Below are positions 12,985 through 23,100 of a DNA stretch of 25,084 nucleotides, piece after piece. Under the pieces are notes generated by a model that was not told the origin of the DNA, made no database searches, and saw only the letters and a program-made list of their open reading frames with translations. How positions within the stretch are numbered: the first letter of the stretch is position 1; each line of letters starts with the position of its first letter. The stretch covers positions 1-25,084 of the IMG/VR virus record IMGVR_UViG_3300020442_002760. One strand, written 5' to 3'. The stretch comes from a virus. The translations under genes and the position numbers were made by a program.

Positions 12985-14058
12985 ATGGCAGCAGACGTAT
13001 TAACTTATAATGCTCTGGCAGAAATTAATCAAGAATTAAGAGCAGAGAATGTAGGATTAGGATCTGCTATTATTGAAGCAGGTGGTGCCCTGCCTGGTGG
13101 TGGCGGCGGCGGTGGTGCTGCATCTGAAGTAAACCAAGATAATATTGATATTGTTAGATGGGCAGGATCTCCAAACTTTGGATTGTCTTGTATGATTCCA
13201 AAGGTTCCAGCAAGCGGAGCATCTTGGACTAGTGGATTTAAAGTTTGCGATACTACTTCTTATTACCGTTGCGGTGCTAGCTGTAATTGGACTGTTCCCT
13301 CTGGTGTAACTTGCGCCCGTTTCCAAATCTGGGGTGCTGGAGGTGGTTCTGCTACTGGTTGTTGCTGTGGTGGATCACCTAATGGTGGATCTGGTGCATA
13401 TGCATCTGTAATCATTCCAGTATCACCAGGTGATACATATACTTTATGTGCTGGTTGTGCTTATTGTTGTTACAATGAGAGAGCACAGATGACCGCAGAT
13501 GGTAATCCATCATATGTTCAGGGAAATAATTTAAATAACTTCTGTGCAGAAGGTGGTGAGTCAAGTATTTGGTGTGAAGTAAAAACCAGACAACAGATTG
13601 CTGCACAGGCTGGTAGCTATTGCATGTATGCTGGATCATGTATTTGTAATAGTGGATCGGATTATTGTTCTAATTCTACTGAAACTGGTGGAGTAGGACG
13701 CTGTAATGATTGTAGAAATCATTATCAATCTACTGCAAGTTGCAAAACTTTCTATGGTACTTCAACTGGTGGTTCTGGTGTTTATGGACTCCCAGGTCAA
13801 TTTAGTTACTTTAGATACCAGTATGGTGCATATAGCCCAACATTCCGTCACCCAGGAGTTTATGGATTCCCAACATGTTCATGTTGCTGCAATCAAACTA
13901 TGAGTAATGAAAATGCAGGATGCTGCTATCAAGCTTGTTCCTGCGCTATCATGAGAGTTCCTGGTGCAGGATCTTGGGGATATACTACTTGTGGTGGTGA
14001 TACCAGTGGATGTTCTGATGTTGGTAGAATGGGTATGGTTTGTGTTTCATACTGTTGA
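12985..14058 (+). CDS. Cysteine-rich, glycine-rich adhesin-like tail protein (357 aa, 33 Cys)
   Basis: The N-terminus (1-40) is helical and charged, then comes a poly-Gly linker. The core (about 83-118) reads FKVCDTTSYYRCGASCNWTV then PSGVTCARFQIWGAGGG, matching the hairpin module of the other glycine-rich proteins (SWTAPSGVT...VGGG). Cysteine clusters follow (GCCCGG, LCAGCAYCCY, CSCCCN, GCCYQACSC) and the end is RMGMVCVSYC. By count 33 of 357 residues are Cys, extreme for a virion protein, suggesting dense disulphides or metal binding. It is a clear paralogue of the protein at 14797-15864. GAGGA (12972-12976) lies 8 bases before the ATG. There is no signal peptide, so oxidation would have to happen in the lysed cell, in the particle or by a dedicated factor. 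Confidence 0.87.
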   Translation: MAADVLTYNALAEINQELRAENVGLGSAIIEAGGALPGGGGGGGAASEVNQDNIDIVRWAGSPNFGLSCMIPKVPASGASWTSGFKVCDTTSYYRCGASCNWTVPSGVTCARFQIWGAGGGSATGCCCGGSPNGGSGAYASVIIPVSPGDTYTLCAGCAYCCYNERAQMTADGNPSYVQGNNLNNFCAEGGESSIWCEVKTRQQIAAQAGSYCMYAGSCICNSGSDYCSNSTETGGVGRCNDCRNHYQSTASCKTFYGTSTGGSGVYGLPGQFSYFRYQYGAYSPTFRHPGVYGFPTCSCCCNQTMSNENAGCCYQACSCAIMRVPGAGSWGYTTCGGDTSGCSDVGRMGMVCVSYC

Positions 14059-14796: not shown

Positions 14797-15864
14797 ATGG
14801 ATGTATTAGTATACAGTGCTTTAAACGAGCAAGCAGCACTTAAAAAAGAAATTGCAGAACGACAGCAATGTCTATTTGATTTAAAAGCAAATAGTGCTGG
14901 TGGCGGTGCGGCAGCAGGTAGTCCTGTTACGATGGCTCAAGAATGGCTAACAACTGGTGAAAAGGAACATTGGCTATGTCCAGAAGATACTAGTAAGTGG
15001 AAAATATATGAGGGTAGTGGTTGGACTGATGGATTTAAAGTCTGTGATACCTCTGGATATTATCGTTGCGGTAGAAACTGTACTTGGACTGTACCTAGTG
15101 GAGTAACACAAGCTAGATTCCAAATCTGGGGTGCTGGTGGTGGCGCAAACAAACCACCTTGTTGCTGTGGACATACACCATTTGGTGCTACTGGAGCATA
15201 TGCATCTGTAATTGTACCAGTACAAGCAGGATGGACTTATACTTTATGTGCTGGTTGTGCATATTGTTGCTATGGATATACTACAGAGTCTGCAAGAAGG
15301 TGGAGTGGTTGTCATTCCTTTGTTCAAGGATGTAAGTTAGATAATTTCTGTGCTGATGGTGGTCAGGCAGAAATGGGTAATTGGATGGCAATGTATGGTA
15401 CTCCATGCACATGTAGATTCAATTATTATACTAGTGGTAATGGTGGTAATTTCTGTAACTGTGGTACTGACTGGTGTTATGTTGGAGAAACCATGACAGG
15501 TACAATTCCCTTTGTTCCTGGTTCTGGTTATCACGGTACTATTAAAGATATTGAGAATCCAACTGCGGAGAATGTTATCTATGGTCTTCGTGGAATGTGG
15601 CCAAAGACATATTGGGATGGCAGCCATTATGGATTCGAGCAGCATCCACCCATCTATGGATTCTTAGGTGCAACTGGTGATTGTACAATGTGTTGCCCAT
15701 GCTATACTAGTGGTAACTGCTGTGGATGCCAGTGTAATGCAACTAATACTCAATGCTTAAGAACCCCAGGAGCTGGTGGATGGGGTTCACATGCAATGGG
15801 TGGTGGAAACGGTCTATACGGTGACTCTGGTAGATTGGGTATGGTTTGCGTATCTTACAAGTAA
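14797..15864 (+). CDS. Cysteine-rich, glycine-rich adhesin-like tail protein, second paralogue (355 aa, 30 Cys)
   Basis: Same architecture as the protein at 12985-14058: a helical N-terminus (ALNEQAALKKEIAERQQCLF), a Gly/Ala linker, FKVCDTSGYYRCGRNC and TWTVPSGVTQARFQIWGAGGG, then clusters CCCGH, LCAGCAYCCYG, CTMCCPCY and CCGCQCN, ending GRLGMVCVSYK. By count it has 30 Cys. The two copies keep the first cluster in register (LCAGCAYCC is identical) but the middle regions differ, as expected for paralogues under diversifying selection. GGAGG (14780-14784) is 12 bases before the ATG. It is probably transcribed from the late promoter at 14066. Likely an exposed tail adhesin; whether the cysteines form disulphides or bind metal cannot be told from sequence. 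Confidence 0.87.
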   Translation: MDVLVYSALNEQAALKKEIAERQQCLFDLKANSAGGGAAAGSPVTMAQEWLTTGEKEHWLCPEDTSKWKIYEGSGWTDGFKVCDTSGYYRCGRNCTWTVPSGVTQARFQIWGAGGGANKPPCCCGHTPFGATGAYASVIVPVQAGWTYTLCAGCAYCCYGYTTESARRWSGCHSFVQGCKLDNFCADGGQAEMGNWMAMYGTPCTCRFNYYTSGNGGNFCNCGTDWCYVGETMTGTIPFVPGSGYHGTIKDIENPTAENVIYGLRGMWPKTYWDGSHYGFEQHPPIYGFLGATGDCTMCCPCYTSGNCCGCQCNATNTQCLRTPGAGGWGSHAMGGGNGLYGDSGRLGMVCVSYK

Positions 15865-15895: not shown

Positions 15896-15929
15896 TACCA
15901 TCGGTTGACTAAATAAATCACCGATGGTA
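15896..15929 (+). repeat. Inverted repeat around the sugar-island promoter
   Basis: Perfect 10-base arms, taccatcggt (15896-15905) and accgatggta (15920-15929), with a 14-base centre. The left arm touches the -35 box and the right arm enters the -10 box. It could be an operator or, as RNA followed by aatttta, a terminator for the upstream late genes. Confidence 0.8.
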
Positions 15930-15933
15930 TAAT
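15905..15933 (+). promoter_or_regulatory. Sigma70-type promoter for the sugar-modification island
   Basis: TTGACT at 15905-15910 and TATAAT at 15928-15933 with a 17-base spacer. The hexamers and spacer equal those at 24754-24782. The first gene starts at 15958. This points to early transcription by host RNA polymerase. Confidence 0.75.
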
Positions 15934-15957: not shown

Positions 15958-17091
15958 ATGAATAAGGCATTTTTCATTAATGGCGGAGCAGGGCGCGTAC
16001 TCTGTTCTATGCCAGCGTTAGAGAAATACGCAGAGACTCATGATGACTTCATCATTGTCTCAGAATCTTGGTCTGAATTGTTTTTAAACAATACAAAACT
16101 AAGAGATCATGTGTATCCAATGGGTCATAAAGATCTTTTTGAAGAGAAATTAAAAGATAAAGAAATTGTATCTCCAGAACCATATCGAGTAAATGCATAT
16201 TTTAATCAGAAGTGTAATCTGATTCAAGCATTTGATATTATTATTAATGAATTAGATGCACCTCGCGAAACTGGAAAAATCAATTTAGATTTGAATAAAG
16301 AAGATCAAATAAATGGTCATAATCTTGTTGCTGAAGTAAAGCAAACACTAGGAAAAGATAAGGTTATTGTATTTCAACCCTTCGGTCAAAGCACTAAAGT
16401 AGAAGGTAACTTTATTTTTGATTCTACTGGTAGAAGTTTTGAAGTAAGTAATGTAATTTCGATTATTGAAGAACTTAATAAGGATTTTGGTGTGATCCTT
16501 ATGTCTGAGATTGAAATTCCTGGGTGGTCTTCTCTTGGAGTTGCGAAACCAAATGGGATGGGATTGAACGGATGGGCAGGTGTTATCAATGCCGCAGATC
16601 ACTTTTTAGGATGTGATAGTGTTGGACAGCATCTATCATATGCTGTAGGAAAACCAACTACTGTAGTAATTGGATCTACATATCCCGAGAATATTTCATA
16701 TCCTAAAAGTGATAAGTTTAATGTTATTGATAATGGTAGTGGTAGGCGTAGGTATAGTCCTATCAGGATCACATTTGATATGAATGTTGATCGTAATAAT
16801 GAGGATTTAATGGTTCTTGATGATAAACAAATTTCTAATATTATTAAAACCATCAAGGGTCCTGAAATTAAGAAGGTATCTAAATTAAAACCAGGTATTG
16901 CACCAACTGCACCAGAAAAGACCAAGACTCTTACTCCTGGAGTGATGCCCAAAAAGGATATAGATATCTCGGCACCAGTTAAAAAGTTTGCAGAACCTTT
17001 CCTCACTCCAAGAGCAAAGAAAAAGAAAAAACCAATTGATGAACTGCTAGAGATTGAAGCAGTAAAGCCAGCAAAAACGATTAAGTCCTGA
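15958..17091 (+). CDS. GT9/heptosyltransferase-like glycosyltransferase with a basic C-terminal tail (377 aa)
   Basis: The N-terminus (FFINGGAGRVLCSMPALEKY) and the segment at about 203-240 (NGWAGVINAADHFLGCDSVG, then HLSYAVGKPTTVVIGST) match the GT-B glycosyltransferase family 9 pattern, where the second segment contacts the nucleotide sugar. GT9 enzymes typically move heptose from ADP-heptose, fitting the HldE/HldD-like genes downstream. Residues about 300-377 are an unusual low-complexity tail rich in Pro, Lys and Thr (APTAPEKTKTLTPGVMPKKD) with a lysine cluster (RAKKKKKP), not a usual GT9 part. TGAGGT (15943-15948) precedes the ATG. It is first behind the sigma70-type promoter and 9 bases from the carbamoyltransferase. 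Family call fairly good; substrate inferred from context. Confidence 0.75.
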   Translation: MNKAFFINGGAGRVLCSMPALEKYAETHDDFIIVSESWSELFLNNTKLRDHVYPMGHKDLFEEKLKDKEIVSPEPYRVNAYFNQKCNLIQAFDIIINELDAPRETGKINLDLNKEDQINGHNLVAEVKQTLGKDKVIVFQPFGQSTKVEGNFIFDSTGRSFEVSNVISIIEELNKDFGVILMSEIEIPGWSSLGVAKPNGMGLNGWAGVINAADHFLGCDSVGQHLSYAVGKPTTVVIGSTYPENISYPKSDKFNVIDNGSGRRRYSPIRITFDMNVDRNNEDLMVLDDKQISNIIKTIKGPEIKKVSKLKPGIAPTAPEKTKTLTPGVMPKKDIDISAPVKKFAEPFLTPRAKKKKKPIDELLEIEAVKPAKTIKS

Positions 17092-17094
17092 GGT
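17089..17094 (+). promoter_or_regulatory. Ribosome binding site overlapping the upstream stop codon
   Basis: TGAGGT contains both the TGA stop of the glycosyltransferase and the AGG core of the Shine-Dalgarno for the ATG at 17101, implying coupled translation. Confidence 0.65.
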
Positions 17095-17100
17095 TAAATC

Positions 17101-18897
17101 ATGAGCATTATTGTTTCGGTTGCTCGCGGTCACAACGCGAGTACTACCTTAATGGTTAATGGTAAAATTATTTTTTATCTAGAAGAAGAACGCCTTTCTA
17201 GGTGGAAACGAGATGGATGTCCTATGATGGGCATCAAGAAAGTATTTGATTATGTTGATCATATTGATCATCTTGTTGTATGCCATACTCATCGTAATGG
17301 TCCACAGTGTGATTGGACTGGTGAAGATATCTACTATGGTATGGTTAGAAAACTTACTAGAAAGAAAGTTAAGTTCTCTACAACATATATTGATACGATT
17401 CATCATCAATTGCATGGCACTGCAGCATTTTATAATTCTGGATTTGATAGTGCAGCGGTATTGATTGCCGATGGTGCTGGTAGTTTTTTGAAAACAAAAG
17501 GTATAGAAGATACTGTTTTTGAGTTTGAGACTATTTTTAAATTTGAAAAAAATCAACCGCCTGAGATTGTATATAAGCATCTTGGCACTGAAGAAGCGAT
17601 TGGTTATCTTAAATTAGATAGTGATCGGGAAATATTTGCTACTGAATATCCTGGTCTTGTAAAAGAGTACGAAGCTATCACTAGATACTGTGGATTCAGT
17701 TCAATTGATGCTGGAAAGACTATGGGTCTTTCTCCATATGGAAAACCAAATGATAAAATTCCCCCTATGTTTAGAGGTGGATTTGGAAACCGAGATTTAT
17801 TCAAACCAAATTATCCAAATGGTGCCTATGTAATTGGTGATCGTTATCCAGAAATTATTAAGGATGTTCCTCAGCATAAGCAGGGGCAGTATACTGATTT
17901 CCAGAAAGATATGGCGTATGCTATTCAGAAAGAAACTGAAGATGAAATGATCAAACTCATCCAAAAAGCACATGACTTAACTGGTGAGAAAAATATTGTT
18001 ATTTCTGGTGGATATGGTTTGAATTGTGTTGCTAACTATAAATTTAAAAAAGCATTCCCAGATTTCAATTTCTTTGTTGAACCAATTTCTCATGATGGTG
18101 GAACATCTATTGGTGGTGCATATCATGTTTATCTGAATAAAGATAAAAAGACTTACCCACAATTACCAGACATTACTCCTACAGATTCTTTATATTATGG
18201 TCCTTTGTATGACCCCGATGAGTATCTAAACGAAATAGATCTTGAAACAGATCAGTATGAAGTAACTGATACATCATATGATGATGTTGCAAAATTAATT
18301 CGTGAAGGAAATATTGTAACTATCTTCCAAGGAAGATCTGAAGGTGGTCCTCGCGCACTTGGTAATAGATCTATTCTTTTTGATCCTACTATCAAAGATG
18401 GTAAGGACATTGTAAACAAAGTAAAGCGTCGTGAATTCTTCCGACCTTTTGCATGTTCTATTCTTGCTGATAAAGTTCATGACTGGTTTGATCTTGCTGG
18501 AATGGAAGAAAGTCCTCATATGATGTATGCTGTAGATTGTCTACCAGGTGTTGAAGAAAAGATTCCTTCTGTTATTCATATTGATGGAACTTGTAGAATT
18601 CAAACAGTTACACCTGAGCAGAACAATCACTATTACAATTTGATTAGTGCATTTGAAAAACTTTCAGATACTCCTATCTTGTTCAATACTTCATTTAATC
18701 TTGGTGGAGATCCATTAGTTGAAACCATAGAAGATGCTATTGATACTCTGGCTAATAGTGATATTAACTATATGTACTTACCAGAAATACAAAAACTAGT
18801 TTTTGTTCCTGTTTCAGAATCTAGAAAAGTTTATCACGATAGAGATTTTGTTCAAAATGATTCTAGTATTACTACAGCTGTTTATGATGAACTATGA
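17101..18897 (+). CDS. NodU/CmcH-family O-carbamoyltransferase (598 aa)
   Basis: Members use carbamoyl phosphate and ATP to make carbamoyl-adenylate and transfer the carbamoyl group to a sugar hydroxyl. The N-terminal Kae1-like domain shows GHNAS at 10-14, LEEERLSRWK at about 27-36, the histidine motif HHQLHGTAAF near 100-110, and LIADGAGSF. The C-terminal YrdC-like domain is marked by EGGPRALGNRSIL at about 413-425 and RREFFRPFACSILAD, and the end by LFNTSFNLGGDPLVET. The length matches the family (about 550-600). In Pseudomonas, the NodU-family enzyme WapO is linked to 7-O-carbamoyl heptose of the LPS core, which makes the neighbouring heptose genes notable. It overlaps the next gene by ATGA. 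Confidence 0.92.
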   Translation: MSIIVSVARGHNASTTLMVNGKIIFYLEEERLSRWKRDGCPMMGIKKVFDYVDHIDHLVVCHTHRNGPQCDWTGEDIYYGMVRKLTRKKVKFSTTYIDTIHHQLHGTAAFYNSGFDSAAVLIADGAGSFLKTKGIEDTVFEFETIFKFEKNQPPEIVYKHLGTEEAIGYLKLDSDREIFATEYPGLVKEYEAITRYCGFSSIDAGKTMGLSPYGKPNDKIPPMFRGGFGNRDLFKPNYPNGAYVIGDRYPEIIKDVPQHKQGQYTDFQKDMAYAIQKETEDEMIKLIQKAHDLTGEKNIVISGGYGLNCVANYKFKKAFPDFNFFVEPISHDGGTSIGGAYHVYLNKDKKTYPQLPDITPTDSLYYGPLYDPDEYLNEIDLETDQYEVTDTSYDDVAKLIREGNIVTIFQGRSEGGPRALGNRSILFDPTIKDGKDIVNKVKRREFFRPFACSILADKVHDWFDLAGMEESPHMMYAVDCLPGVEEKIPSVIHIDGTCRIQTVTPEQNNHYYNLISAFEKLSDTPILFNTSFNLGGDPLVETIEDAIDTLANSDINYMYLPEIQKLVFVPVSESRKVYHDRDFVQNDSSITTAVYDEL

Positions 18898-19304
18898 AAA
18901 CAATATGGTGTAATGGGACATTCGATGTCCTTCACCCAGGGCATATAGAATTATTTAAAGTTGCTAAATCCCTGGGTGATAAGGTCATTGTTGCAACAGA
19001 TAGTGATGAAAAAATTAGAAAAGATAAGGGTTCTTCTAGACCCATAAATGATATCTGTTCAAGATATGCTATGCTTTCTGCAATCAAATATATTGATCAA
19101 GTTTTAATTTTTAATAATAGAAAGCATCTTGAAGACTTGATTAAATTATATTCTCCTGATATCATATTATTAGGAAACGATTGGGAAAATGGAGATGTTG
19201 TTGGTAGAGAGTATGCCAAAGAAGTTAGATTTCTTCCCAGGTATGGTGGATACTCTAGTACTAAAATTATTGAGAAAGTAAATGAAAGTTCTGCTACTCG
19301 GTGA
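18894..19304 (+). CDS. HldE C-terminal-type (RfaE2) sugar-phosphate nucleotidyltransferase (136 aa)
   Basis: The N-terminus has the nucleotidyltransferase signature CNGTFDVLHPGHIELF with His14 and His17 forming HxGH. Other family motifs are VIVATDSDEKIRKDKGSSRP, the PDIILLGNDWE segment, and YSSTKIIEKV near the end (about 120-129). HldE-type enzymes transfer AMP from ATP to heptose-1-phosphate; related enzymes use glycerol-3-phosphate with CTP. The heptose reading is preferred because a PfkB kinase like HldE's other half is encoded next and an HldD-like epimerase follows. Length agrees with the roughly 130-residue HldE nucleotidyltransferase domain. It overlaps the carbamoyltransferase by 4 bases and the kinase by 23 bases. 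Confidence 0.87.
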   Translation: MKTIWCNGTFDVLHPGHIELFKVAKSLGDKVIVATDSDEKIRKDKGSSRPINDICSRYAMLSAIKYIDQVLIFNNRKHLEDLIKLYSPDIILLGNDWENGDVVGREYAKEVRFLPRYGGYSSTKIIEKVNESSATR

Positions 19305-20028
19305 TAGTTGTGAAGATGAATATATCTATGGTAGATGTAACAGGATAAGTCCAGAAGCACCAGTACCGATTTTAAAGTATGCAAAAATAAAAACAAAATC
19401 TGGCATGGCTGGTAATGTTTGTTTAAACTTACAGGCATTTGGTCTTGATGTAACTTTTCTAACTAATTCAGAAAGAATCGTTAAAACTAGATTCATTGAC
19501 GAAAAATCAAATCAACAAATTCTTAGAATGGATAATGAGGAGAGAGTAAAACCTCTCCTTGTTCCTGTATCAACTGAAAGTTTTGATGCTGTTGTTATAT
19601 CTGACTATGATAAAGGATACTTAACTCATGATAAAATTTTTGAGATAGTAGAAAATTCTTCTTGTCCTGTTTTTATTGATAGTAAAAAAACAATTTTACC
19701 AAATAAAGAAAATTGTTTTGTTAAGATTAATGATATTGAGTATGAAAATCTAAGAGAAGACTGTTATATTGATAATCTTATTGTTACTAAAGGATCTGAG
19801 GGGTGTGTTTATAAACAAACACTATATCCTGCAGAGAAGGTCAATGTGTATGATGTAGTTGGTGCAGGAGATACTTTTCTTTCTGCTCTAGTTTATGGAT
19901 ATATAACATGTGGAGATATTCAAGTATCTCTTATGTTGGGTAACAGAGCAGCTGCTAAAGCAGTTCAGCAACCAGGTACTTATATTTTGAGTGAGGATGA
20001 TGTAAATGAGATACTGTATCGACATTGA
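19282..20028 (+). CDS. HldE N-terminal-type (RfaE1, PfkB family) heptose-phosphate kinase (248 aa)
   Basis: PfkB-family sugar kinase. The start VLLLGDSCEDEYIYGRCNRI followed by SPEAPVP is characteristic of the HldE kinase half. KSGMAGNVCLNL (about 39-50) corresponds to its sugar-binding GGAxN region. The C-terminal signature DVVGAGDTFLSAL (191-203) supplies the likely catalytic Asp197. In HldE this domain phosphorylates D-glycero-D-manno-heptose-7-phosphate at C1. At 248 residues it is about 70 shorter than the E. coli kinase domain (about 318); the part after FLTN (near 61) looks compressed. The bacterial fusion is split here and in reverse order (nucleotidyltransferase first). It overlaps both neighbours by 23 bases, indicating a compact translationally coupled operon. 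Confidence 0.87.
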   Translation: MKVLLLGDSCEDEYIYGRCNRISPEAPVPILKYAKIKTKSGMAGNVCLNLQAFGLDVTFLTNSERIVKTRFIDEKSNQQILRMDNEERVKPLLVPVSTESFDAVVISDYDKGYLTHDKIFEIVENSSCPVFIDSKKTILPNKENCFVKINDIEYENLREDCYIDNLIVTKGSEGCVYKQTLYPAEKVNVYDVVGAGDTFLSALVYGYITCGDIQVSLMLGNRAAAKAVQQPGTYILSEDDVNEILYRH

Positions 20029-20335
20029 CGGAACTATCTGTAGTCCTACGGTGGGGAGGAACTATCACGAAGCAGAACCCTGGTATGATAGAATAGAAAG
20101 AGTAAATAAAATGTATGATGAGGGTCACTACATAATCTACTTTACTGCAAGAGCTATGGGAAGATTTGCTGGTGATCCTGACGCTGCATCTAAAGCAACT
20201 GCACTGATGAAAGATTTAACTACAGAACAGTTAAATACTTGGGGGTGTAAGTATCATGAATTAATTCTTGGTAAACCACACGCCGACCTATTCATCGACG
20301 ACAAAGGAATTAACTGCGATGACTTCTTCAATTAA
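20006..20335 (+). CDS. Small HAD-superfamily phosphatase (109 aa), possible GmhB substitute
   Basis: HAD motif I is CIDIDGTI with Asp6 and Asp8. Motif II is YFTARA with Thr47. Lys90 in LGKPHAD is the motif III candidate, and LFIDDKGIN (Asp98, Asp99) is motif IV. No sizeable cap domain fits into 109 residues, so substrate choice may come from oligomer contacts or be broad. ADP-heptose synthesis needs a phosphatase (GmhB, about 190 residues) between kinase and nucleotidyltransferase; this gene, lying beside both, is the obvious candidate, but the assignment is contextual. Similar small HAD proteins occur in capsule and sugar clusters. The ATG (MRYCIDIDG) overlaps the kinase gene by 23 bases and the stop overlaps the cupin gene by 17 bases. 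Confidence 0.8.
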   Translation: MRYCIDIDGTICSPTVGRNYHEAEPWYDRIERVNKMYDEGHYIIYFTARAMGRFAGDPDAASKATALMKDLTTEQLNTWGCKYHELILGKPHADLFIDDKGINCDDFFN

Positions 20336-20672
20336 ATATGTCCCCAAAGGATGGGGGTATGAGAAGTGGATAGTCAACAACGAAAAATATTGCGGCAAAC
20401 TCTTGTTCATTGAGAAAAACAAGAGGTGCTCATGGCACTATCATAAAATAAAAGACGAGACCTTCTATTTGCAGAGTGGTCTCATCTCACTGTATTATGG
20501 TTATGATGAAAATTTAGCAAAAGCAGATATTATTGTTCTTGCACCTGGTGATAGATTTCATATTCCAACTGGATTAAAACATCAAATGGTTGCTCTAGAA
20601 GACGCTGAACTATTTGAATTTTCAACCCAGCATTTTGATGAGGATAGTTATAGAATACTCACTGGAGATTAA
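20319..20672 (+). CDS. Cupin-domain protein (117 aa)
   Basis: Single-domain cupin. Motif 1 is CSWHYHKIKDETFYLQSG with metal-ligand candidates His40, His42 and Glu47. Motif 2 is PGDRFHIPTGLKHQMVAL with His88. The start VPKGWGYEKWIVNNEKYCGK resembles cupins fused to or acting with sugar nucleotidyltransferases and mannose-6-phosphate isomerases, so a sugar isomerase, epimerase or binding role is likely; the substrate is not visible. The ATG at 20319 (MTSSIKYVPKGWGYEKW) is preferred over a longer in-frame start because it limits overlap with the HAD gene to 17 bases and starts the conserved region. It is the last + strand gene of the island and converges with the epimerase, the 3' ends overlapping by 14 bases. 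Confidence 0.82.
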   Translation: MTSSIKYVPKGWGYEKWIVNNEKYCGKLLFIEKNKRCSWHYHKIKDETFYLQSGLISLYYGYDENLAKADIIVLAPGDRFHIPTGLKHQMVALEDAELFEFSTQHFDEDSYRILTGD

Positions 20673-21453
20673 GATATTTGGGGATGGTTGTAAATATATA
20701 ATCTCCCCATAGTTTTTTCGCACAAGTATAATCTTGATATTTACCTTTTAAATGGTCGGGGAATGGAATGTATTCTATATCTCCACCATATTTTTTTATG
20801 CAGCATTCCGCAACAAATTGAAAACTAACAGGAGCACTAGTACCTAAATCATAGATACCAGATTTTTTCCCATTATCTAATACTAAATTTACAATATCAT
20901 CAACACACACAAAGTCTCTTAAGAAGTCTTGAGATCCTTCAAATAGTTTTAGTTTACCTGTTTCTTTAATTTCTTTGGCAAACTTGCTTACAGGACTTGC
21001 TTGATTACCTTTGTGCCCTTCACCATCACCATATACATTGAAGTATCTGAATCCTTGAATGAGTGGAAACTTGTCTAAGTTATCTTCAACCCAGTAGTCA
21101 ACAGTTACTTTAGATAGTGCATAGTAATTCAAAGGATTAATAATTCCTACTTGATTTCCATATACGGATGCCGATGAAGCATACTTTACAGGTATGCTAT
21201 GCTTAGCAGCCATCGTAAATAACCATCGACTGAAGTCTATGTTGTGCTCATAAATTTTATCCAGATTTGTTTCAGTTGTTGAAGATATTGCCCCTTGATG
21301 AATGATCATCTCAACATCATTCCAACTTTTGAAATAATTTCTAAAGTGATGTATGTCTGATTGTTCTACACCGTAAACTTTTTTTCCTCTTCTTTCTAAT
21401 TCGGTATGAAATTTTTTACCAATAAAACCTTTGTGACCTGTAAGAATAATCAT
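20659..21453 (-). CDS. hldD: ADP-L-glycero-D-manno-heptose 6-epimerase-like SDR enzyme (264 aa)
   Basis: Extended SDR epimerase. The NAD(P)-binding motif TGHKGFIG is at 5-12. The catalytic residues are seen in YASSASVYG (Ser93/Ser94) and YYALSK (Tyr111, Lys115). Several segments are typical of HldD: IIHQGAISSTTE, GFRYFNVYGDGEGHKGNQAS, LFEGSQDFLRDFV and YIPFPDHLKGKYQ. HldD converts ADP-D-glycero-D-manno-heptose to the L-glycero epimer. At 264 residues it is about 45 shorter than the E. coli enzyme, mostly through shorter loops. It is the only confident - strand gene in the window. No good Shine-Dalgarno precedes the ATG. A sigma70-type promoter lies about 60 bases upstream on the - strand, inside the 5' end of the gene at 21490. 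Confidence 0.9.
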   Translation of the reverse strand: MIILTGHKGFIGKKFHTELERRGKKVYGVEQSDIHHFRNYFKSWNDVEMIIHQGAISSTTETNLDKIYEHNIDFSRWLFTMAAKHSIPVKYASSASVYGNQVGIINPLNYYALSKVTVDYWVEDNLDKFPLIQGFRYFNVYGDGEGHKGNQASPVSKFAKEIKETGKLKLFEGSQDFLRDFVCVDDIVNLVLDNGKKSGIYDLGTSAPVSFQFVAECCIKKYGGDIEYIPFPDHLKGKYQDYTCAKKLWGDYIFTTIPKYLNLQ

Positions 21454-21489: not shown

Positions 21490-23100
21490 ATGGCGTTTGG
21501 ACTTCTAAATTCTATTATACCAGATCCTAATTCAGTACTCAACCTTTATACAGGACCTGCTGGGAAGTTAACTGTAGGTAAGATAACTATTGGTAGTAAA
21601 AATTATGATCCTTCTAGAATTCAGATTGGATATAAAGATGGAAGTGATGTAAGATATTTTGAGTATAATCGTTATGTAAAATACGGTGAGGTTATTGAAA
21701 CCGAGAATATTTATTTGGGTGAAGGGCAAGAGCTTGTTGTAAGATCTACTGAACCTGATGTAAACTTTTTGTTTTATGGGCAGACATATAGTGATACTGT
21801 AAATCCACAAAGATCAGGAGTTCTTAGCCATACATTATCAACTGGAACAACAAAACAATCCATTTATACTGCACCTGCAGGGTCCCAGTCTTCTGTTACA
21901 ATTTCGATTGTAAATATGGGTCCAGATGTATCCACAGTTAAGTTGGGTATTTCTAATGGTGGGTTGAATGATTTTGATTCTACAGAATACTTAGATTATG
22001 GATTTGATATAGGACCTGGGCAAACATATACCAGACCAAATATTAAATTAGATGCTGGACAATCTTTAATAGGATTTTCAAATCCTAAATCTAAGGTATC
22101 TTTCTTATGTCATGGTAGATTATATTATGCGGTTAGTGGATTACCCACTAGTGATGACTTCATGGTTCTTGGTAATGCAAGAATAACTGGTAATATTGGT
22201 GTTGGAACTACTGCTGCTGTTAAACTAGATGTTCTTGGGGACGCACAGATCTCTGGAATGACCTCAGTTGGTCATAATCTAACTGTTGGTGGTGGATTGG
22301 AAGTTGTGGGAATGTCTACATTCTCAGGCATTTCTGTCAACTCTGGTAATATTACTATCACTAGTATTGATACTAATAGAATGTTCCAAGTTGGTGTTGC
22401 AACCTTCAGAGGAACTACTAAGATTGAAGGTGAAACCGCAAACTTCCAAACTAATACTTTTAAGGCACAATCAAATCAGGTAGTTCTTGGGTTTGGTACT
22501 GCTACTACTTTTAGAGCATATGCTACTGGTGGGTCTGACATTATATTCTTAAATCAACAATTAGAATCCAAAGATTTGTTCAGTAATAATGATCTGATCA
22601 ATAATGTATTGGTTTCTGTAGCATCAGTACCTCAAGGATCTAATCTTACCCTAAACCCTGGGACAAGAATTACTGGAAAATATTATGATGATACTGGCAG
22701 AGCAAGATTTCTTACTTTATCAAATCCTGTAGGTGGTAATGGTAATGCAGTTTGTACTTTTAGTGTAAATGGACCAGATGACAATACGGCTGCTAATGGT
22801 GGAATAGTTATTAAAGGTACTGTAGATAAGCATATTCTCTGGAGACAAAGTTTAAATGCATTTGAATTTACACAGGGAATTAAATTAAATACAGGAACAC
22901 TGGCAATTGCTGATCAAAATGCAACTATTTCTATAGGAGTTACTAATGTCCTTACTGCAGATACAGTGCTTGGATGTGGTATAGTAACAGCAATCACAAA
23001 ATCATCAACAGACACAGAAATACCTACCGCAAGAGCAACCTATCTTGCAGCAAGAAATCTTCAGGCATTAAATTACTGGTTAGCTTCATCTAATAGATAA
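21490..23100 (+). CDS. Virion structural protein with two beta modules and a fibre-like middle (536 aa)
   Basis: Residues about 8-98 and 111-211 are two copies of a module also found alone in the 106-residue protein at 12624-12944 (LNLYTGPAGKLTVGKITI; SIYTAPAGSQSSVTISIVN; repeated E-Y-x-x-Y and GQxL patterns). From about 225 a fibre motif follows (VLGNARITGNIGVGTTAAVK, LDVLGDAQISG), related to the protein at 7727-8506, and then strand-rich shaft sequence (LTVGGGLEVVGMSTFSGISV). The C-terminal half contains GSNLTLNPGTRITGKYYDD and ends in STDTEIPTARATYLAARNLQ. No enzyme motif is visible. A consensus late promoter precedes it, while the - strand sigma70 promoter for the epimerase lies within its first 55 bases. 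Probably a tail fibre or baseplate protein. Confidence 0.85.
   Translation: MAFGLLNSIIPDPNSVLNLYTGPAGKLTVGKITIGSKNYDPSRIQIGYKDGSDVRYFEYNRYVKYGEVIETENIYLGEGQELVVRSTEPDVNFLFYGQTYSDTVNPQRSGVLSHTLSTGTTKQSIYTAPAGSQSSVTISIVNMGPDVSTVKLGISNGGLNDFDSTEYLDYGFDIGPGQTYTRPNIKLDAGQSLIGFSNPKSKVSFLCHGRLYYAVSGLPTSDDFMVLGNARITGNIGVGTTAAVKLDVLGDAQISGMTSVGHNLTVGGGLEVVGMSTFSGISVNSGNITITSIDTNRMFQVGVATFRGTTKIEGETANFQTNTFKAQSNQVVLGFGTATTFRAYATGGSDIIFLNQQLESKDLFSNNDLINNVLVSVASVPQGSNLTLNPGTRITGKYYDDTGRARFLTLSNPVGGNGNAVCTFSVNGPDDNTAANGGIVIKGTVDKHILWRQSLNAFEFTQGIKLNTGTLAIADQNATISIGVTNVLTADTVLGCGIVTAITKSSTDTEIPTARATYLAARNLQALNYWLASSNR
21514..21542 (-). promoter_or_regulatory. Sigma70-type promoter on the - strand for the epimerase gene
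   Basis: Read on the - strand: TTGAGT (21542-21537), 17-base spacer, exact TATAAT (21519-21514). It points toward the epimerase start at 21453 and lies inside the coding region of the late gene at 21490. Confidence 0.65.

Follow-up and report, generated by a model that had tools for sequence, protein, structure and literature searches.

A predicted cupin isomerase for the GmhA step in a putative ADP-heptose cassette of a marine cyanophage

How would a phage that carries enzymes for an activated heptose start the pathway without the isomerase GmhA, and onto what would it place the sugar? This question is raised by the operon at positions 15958-21453 of virus record IMGVR_UViG_3300020442_002760 (25,084 bases, analysed over its whole length and referred to here as the window), which stems from a marine cyanophage of the T4-like group, a relative of Prochlorococcus phage P-SSM2. 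A sequence-only reading had named six enzymes in this operon and had considered only the GmhA step to be missing. Profile searches of the window proteins recovered all six at the places given for them (Table 1), and the list proved to be incomplete, as a cupin gene with its own start and stop codons lies between the HAD phosphatase and epimerase genes. Judged from its sequence and predicted fold, this metal-binding cupin is probably a non-orthologous sedoheptulose-7-phosphate isomerase that closes the pathway, and the cassette is thus likely a self-contained five-step route to ADP-heptose. The assignment rests on gene content, homology, conserved active-site residues, co-occurrence, gene fusions, the absence of SIS-type GmhA and the tail-fibre context, and it is from these that we infer every catalytic activity, the carbamoyl position and the acceptor.

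The cupin and the missing GmhA

The best PDB matches of the cupin family profile were the D-lyxose isomerases 2y0o and 7nzo. Using Foldseek, the AlphaFold model of the cupin (predicted local distance difference test, pLDDT, 95.6) was matched best to Thermofilum D-lyxose isomerase 7nzp (9.4e-10), and a Thermococcus phosphomannose isomerase was matched as well. In VIA-align comparisons, D-lyxose isomerases reached Z scores of ca. 14.5 at no more than 33% identity with many other cupins tied or nearly so, and the highest Z score was obtained for CapF (15.7; root-mean-square deviation, rmsd, of 2.1 over 113 residues, 16% identity). Because Z scores are nearly tied across cupins with CapF on top, the fold alone does not settle the function. 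Further, the window cupin scored 17.1 bits against the Pfam D-lyxose isomerase family PF07385, below the gathering threshold of 20.8 bits, and this family matched 11 of 45 members of the cupin family at an E-value of at most 0.001.

In the Thermofilum D-lyxose isomerase TsLI, mannose or fructose and the metal are contacted by K62, H75, H77, K86, E88, H143, E156 and D163 (PMC8378251). These residues correspond to K27, H40, H42, K45, E47, H88, E100 and D107 of the window cupin, which therefore combines a cupin fold with the four ligands of the metal and the four other contacts to the sugar seen in TsLI. The first seven are invariant throughout a set of 144 distinct viral cupins (one row being gapped at two of them), and position 107 is D or E. 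Isomerisation between fructose and mannose follows the same stereochemistry as conversion of sedoheptulose 7-phosphate to manno-heptose 7-phosphate, one carbon shorter. The fold and the eight contacts are common to TsLI (7nzo), YdaE (2y0o), E. coli Z5688 (3kmh) and the phage cupin. In contrast to these D-lyxose/D-mannose isomerases, the phage protein is shorter (117 compared with ca. 175-225 residues), its predicted substrate is phosphorylated and has seven carbons, and it carries additional invariant residues K10, W12, E15, H105 and R112 which could bind the distal phosphate. A literature search found no paper proposing a cupin phosphoheptose isomerase or a cupin at the GmhA step.

SIS-type GmhA (SIS_2, PF13580) was not matched in the window, in P-SSM2 and S-SM2 or in 50 related kinase-bearing records. 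Likewise, 11 of 12 cyanophage genomes had no SIS_2 match, the twelfth, SynMITS9220M01, having a single match below the cut-off in a separate cluster. The search for gmhA beyond the window, which had been suggested for the rest of the phage and was carried out here on relatives, thus yielded no more than this weak match. The idea that the pathway has a gap at GmhA is probably mistaken: relatives with complete sequences also do without this enzyme and hold the conserved cupin, the predicted isomerase, in that slot.

The operon itself is not new and has long been public in P-SSM2, where PSSM2_307-313 show identical gene order at ca. 75% DNA identity and an additional 2-oxoglutarate (2OG)-Fe(II) oxygenase gene follows the epimerase. 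The pathway had not been worked out there, and its annotation likely errs in labelling the HAD protein a phosphoheptose isomerase and the cupin a nucleotidyltransferase or cysteine dioxygenase. For one locus (L001 27312-27993), the public label cysteine dioxygenase for the cupin and the RefSeq label phosphoheptose isomerase for the HAD protein look wrong in the light of profiles and folds. Most genes of the operon overlap, the cupin gene by 17 bases with the HAD gene and by 14 bases with the convergent epimerase gene. These overlaps, and a gene order kept in P-SSM2 and dozens of viral contigs, exclude a chance assembly.

Sullivan et al. 2010 (PMC3037559) described seven lipopolysaccharide (LPS) genes, including T4-GC 304, 305, 307 and 308, that co-occur in three cyanophages, left their function open and raised the possibility of stuffer DNA. 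T4-GC 307 is the cupin. That the cassette is stuffer DNA is highly improbable, as active-site residues and gene order are retained at 45-85% protein identity in many contigs and the promoter is conserved, so that purifying selection is needed to explain them. The proposed isomerase bears on the long-standing question of the role of such LPS genes in cyanophages. It would also provide a concrete function for the apparently mislabelled cupin family and supply the step that the pathway seemed to lack in many marine phages, as well as in archaea that have no gmhA.

Predicted heptose enzymes and the proposed route

We compared the remaining enzymes with curated families, a check the sequence-only reading had called for, and the best curated family for both kinase and transferase was the heptose family. 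The kinase scored 145.3 bits against TIGR02198 (HldE domain I), below the equivalog cut-off of 345 bits, yet this was the best family by a wide margin, the next sugar-kinase families reaching ca. 40 bits. HldA (4e84) was the best solved structure for the kinase family (1.7e-38), and the motifs RISPEAPVP, QQ.LR.D and GAGDT are retained in the alignment to HldA. For the transferase, TIGR02199 (HldE domain II) scored 108 bits (cut-off 181.5) and matched 30 of 30 members of its family. The epimerase, a shorter protein, scored 210.7 bits against TIGR02197 (HldD; equivalog cut-off 274.6); HldD (1eq2) was the best solved structure for its family (3.1e-65), and alignment to this E. coli enzyme shows that the motifs SSxxxYG, PLNxYxxSK and HKG..AS, whose roles we take to be catalytic, are kept. 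In case of the HAD protein, EcbF/BcbF-type capsule phosphatases were the only best matches (33 bits) and GmhB (HAD-IIIA GmhB/histidinol-phosphatase family) was not matched at an E-value of at most 0.01, while the catalytic motifs DxDGT, T and K..DD are retained. Together with the heptosyltransferase fold of the GT9-like protein, the HldA and HldD matches support the heptose identity proposed earlier.

The putative route would follow the five-step logic of E. coli GmhA-HldE-GmhB-HldD, with which it shares kinase, adenylyltransferase and epimerase homologues and their motifs. The cupin would isomerise sedoheptulose 7-phosphate to manno-heptose 7-phosphate, the HldE-N-like kinase would phosphorylate C1, the small HAD protein would take off the 7-phosphate, the HldE-C-like enzyme would make ADP-heptose and the HldD-like enzyme would epimerise it to the L,D form. 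Subsequently, the GT9-fold enzyme would transfer the heptose, most likely onto the tail fibres of the phage, and the NodU-type enzyme would carbamoylate the sugar. Unlike in E. coli, HldE is split into two proteins with a shortened kinase, the cupin stands in place of GmhA and the small EcbF/BcbF-type HAD protein in place of GmhB.

Several points weigh against a complete heptose pathway of this kind. None of the three phage enzymes kinase, transferase and epimerase reaches its NCBIfam equivalog cut-off, and among solved structures the transferase family is nearest to cytidylyltransferases. The weak GmhA-like gene of SynMITS9220M01 lies in a second cluster of that phage, in one lineage of phages (L022, L027, L030) no cupin or HAD gene lies near the kinase and transferase genes, and many viral contigs are fragments. 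Further, the cupin of Babeliales/TM6 is not part of a heptose cluster, and the substrates of the family therefore vary. The scores and the cytidylyltransferase structures, as well as the use of lyxose and mannose by relatives of the cupin, would fit HldE-like enzymes acting on another substrate to give a non-heptose nucleotide sugar, for example a CDP- or ADP-activated pentose or hexose. We consider this improbable, given that heptose families are the best curated families for kinase, transferase and epimerase alike, that catalytic and signature motifs are retained and that the glycosyltransferase has a heptosyltransferase fold; moreover, kinases and an epimerase found alongside the same cupin in archaea exceed the curated cut-offs.

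Two of these contexts have further features. In the lineage without the cupin the epimerase is also lacking nearby, and uncharacterised genes of ca. 250 residues lie around the transferase. In Babeliales (L234, L238, L242), the cupin was seen by eye to lie beside lpxK-like and ribulose-phosphate-epimerase-like genes, which suggests that it serves a different ketose-aldose conversion there, perhaps towards arabinose 5-phosphate for 3-deoxy-D-manno-octulosonic acid (Kdo).

Viral and archaeal contexts of the cupin

More than 200 loci came up when viral contigs were scanned with the kinase, the cupin and the transferase as queries. To keep cassette counts free of cupin-query bias, loci were taken from the scans with kinase or transferase queries alone, after dereplication and with 3 kb of downstream sequence included. 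Of these 57 loci, 56 have the cupin, 56 the transferase, 53 the HAD gene and 43 that of the epimerase, the nucleotidyltransferase, kinase, HAD and cupin genes forming a tight cassette. All kinase-bearing cyanophage records also carry the cupin.

A genome scan for the cupin revealed Woesearchaeota and Nanoarchaeota in which it is fused to the C-terminus of the HldE kinase (kinase-cupin fusions of DPANN archaea: L233, L235, L236, L255, L258 and L260). In two of these archaea the fusion has an HldD-like gene and a fused HldC-GmhB frame as neighbours, and in another archaeon (L257) GmhB, cupin and HldC form a single frame of 504 residues. Fused kinase-SIS frames (e.g. G129, G150, G282) mirror the kinase-cupin fusions. 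In 236 genomes of the phylum of these archaea, we counted partners within 4 kb of HldE-type kinases. For kinases of at least 200 bits, 27 had SIS-GmhA, 10 the cupin, none both and 14 neither (Fisher 1.5e-4), and for those of at least 300 bits the numbers were 25, 9, 0 and 6 (p=1.8e-5). The argument is tempered by the fact that the test makes no correction for relatedness and that no completeness value is attached to these assemblies. Our literature search found no paper linking DPANN archaea with ADP-heptose.

The cupin also occurs in a second type of phage cluster. In phages Bellamy and SynMITS9220M01, the latter with heptose genes mentioned in PMC7378029, it is flanked by the gene of an HddC-like guanylyltransferase (ca. 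60 bits) and that of an HddA-like heptose kinase, which scores 279-287 bits against a cut-off of 600. Such enzymes belong to the GDP-heptose route GmhA-HddA-GmhB-HddC, whereas the window has HldE-type enzymes. The ADP- and GDP-heptose routes have only the isomerase and phosphatase steps in common, and the presence of the cupin in both cluster types therefore points to its step.

These contexts also bear on a reading in which the heptose is made from D,D-heptose 7-phosphate supplied by the host and the cupin carries out another sugar step, such as nucleotide-sugar epimerisation, or is regulatory. Cupins are diverse, and WbuC and CapF-type cupins, the latter with the top VIA Z score, occur in surface-sugar clusters. 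On the phage and archaeal genomes covered here, we nevertheless regard a host supply as unlikely because all isomerase contacts match, the cupin is fused to the kinase and to GmhB-HldC, does not occur together with SIS-GmhA beside HldE kinases and recurs in ADP- and GDP-heptose clusters, and heptose is reportedly missing from cyanobacterial LPS.

Acceptor of the sugar and gene layout

The window glycosyltransferase scored 18.2 bits against PF01075, below the gathering threshold of 22 bits, and its AlphaFold2 model (pLDDT 84.5) showed a GT9 fold. Foldseek matched the model best to WaaF (1psw, 2.6e-10) and also to WaaC and TibC, and in VIA-align the members of GT9 gave Z scores of 19-23, with an rmsd of 3.2-3.8 across 249-274 residues, before values fell to 12. 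The fold is shared with WaaC, WaaF and TibC over residues 1-305, at 11-17% identity in the structural alignment, and differs by a long variable tail. The carbamoyltransferase exceeded the cut-offs of PF16861 (194.6 bits) and PF02543 (79.8 bits) and matched 7xb6 (2.5e-56) and TobZ (4.5e-43), in keeping with a NodU/TobZ-type enzyme. The carbamoyl group is presumed to sit on the heptose.

Fibre or neck genes were found within 8 kb of 52 of 57 cassettes with GT9 and carbamoyltransferase genes and of none of 28 cassettes without them (p=1e-17), a comparison weakened by structural queries that came mostly from this phage group, because of which distant fibre genes of the second set could be missed. 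This context favours modification of virion fibres over host LPS. Were the heptose placed instead on the LPS or capsule of the host, to mask receptors or to exclude superinfecting phages, only the acceptor would change. This is a serious possibility, if the less probable one: the core genes of S-SM2 and P-TIM68 belong to large sugar islands that hold many glycosyltransferase genes, and earlier authors spoke of LPS clusters (PMC3037559). Against it, besides the fibre neighbours, the operon lacks a flippase or ligase, and the protein heptosyltransferase TibC is among the closest GT9 folds. We therefore put the chance that the sugar is placed on the tail fibres of the phage at about even.

Of the targets the sequence-only reading had offered, the phage's own fibres are thus favoured by genome context, host LPS less so, and nothing was found in support of DNA. 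Its premise that LPS of marine Synechococcus lacks heptose agrees with a report of cyanobacterial LPS without heptose and Kdo (PMC4390846). Were the fibres heptosylated, both the adsorption of phages to cyanobacteria abundant in the ocean and their host range could hinge on a sugar that the host reportedly does not make. More tentatively, a new class of metal-dependent, non-SIS cupin sedoheptulose-7-phosphate isomerases common to marine phages and DPANN archaea might start both ADP- and GDP-heptose routes, with phage tail fibres carrying carbamoylated heptose. Virion heptosylation is, to our knowledge, not known from any phage.

Table 1. Predicted features of the operon and its flanks in the window.
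Feature	Position	Strand	Remarks
Two paralogous Cys/Gly-rich proteins, phrog_35878	12985-14058 and 14797-15864	+	directly upstream of operon
Sigma70-like promoter (predicted), near-consensus TTGACT-N17-TATAAT	15905..15933	+	upstream of operon
GT9-family glycosyltransferase (heptosyltransferase fold)	15958..17091	+	phrog_8954; low-confidence C-terminal tail of ca. 75 residues
NodU/TobZ-type O-carbamoyltransferase	17101..18897	+	profile and PDB matches
HldE C-domain-like nucleotidyltransferase, predicted heptose-1-phosphate adenylyltransferase	18894..19304	+	TIGR02199
HldE N-domain-like PfkB kinase, compact, predicted D,D-heptose-7-phosphate kinase	19282..20028	+	TIGR02198, motifs
Small HAD phosphatase, EcbF/BcbF-like, predicted bisphosphate 7-phosphatase replacing GmhB	20006..20335	+	
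Cupin, predicted aldose-ketose isomerase for sedoheptulose 7-phosphate in place of GmhA	20319..20672	+	ATG 20319, stop 20672
HldD-like ADP-heptose 6-epimerase, NAD-dependent short-chain dehydrogenase/reductase	20659..21453	-	TIGR02197, PDB
Tail-fibre protein, phrog_11338	21490..23100	+	directly downstream of operon

The two Cys/Gly-rich paralogues are candidate acceptors. Of 64 full cassettes, 44 have homologues of the first of them upstream of GT9. In P-SSM2-like relatives, the -35 element, the spacing and the -10 element of the putative promoter are all kept ca. 30 bases 5' of the GT9 gene, and in the window a late-like CTAAATA overlaps it. Some cassettes hold additional genes, namely a tryptophan halogenase in S-SSM7 (L273 548-7436) and 2OG-Fe(II) oxygenases together with a second carbamoyltransferase-domain gene in Sf-FS3 (L278 798-6426), hinting at further decoration.
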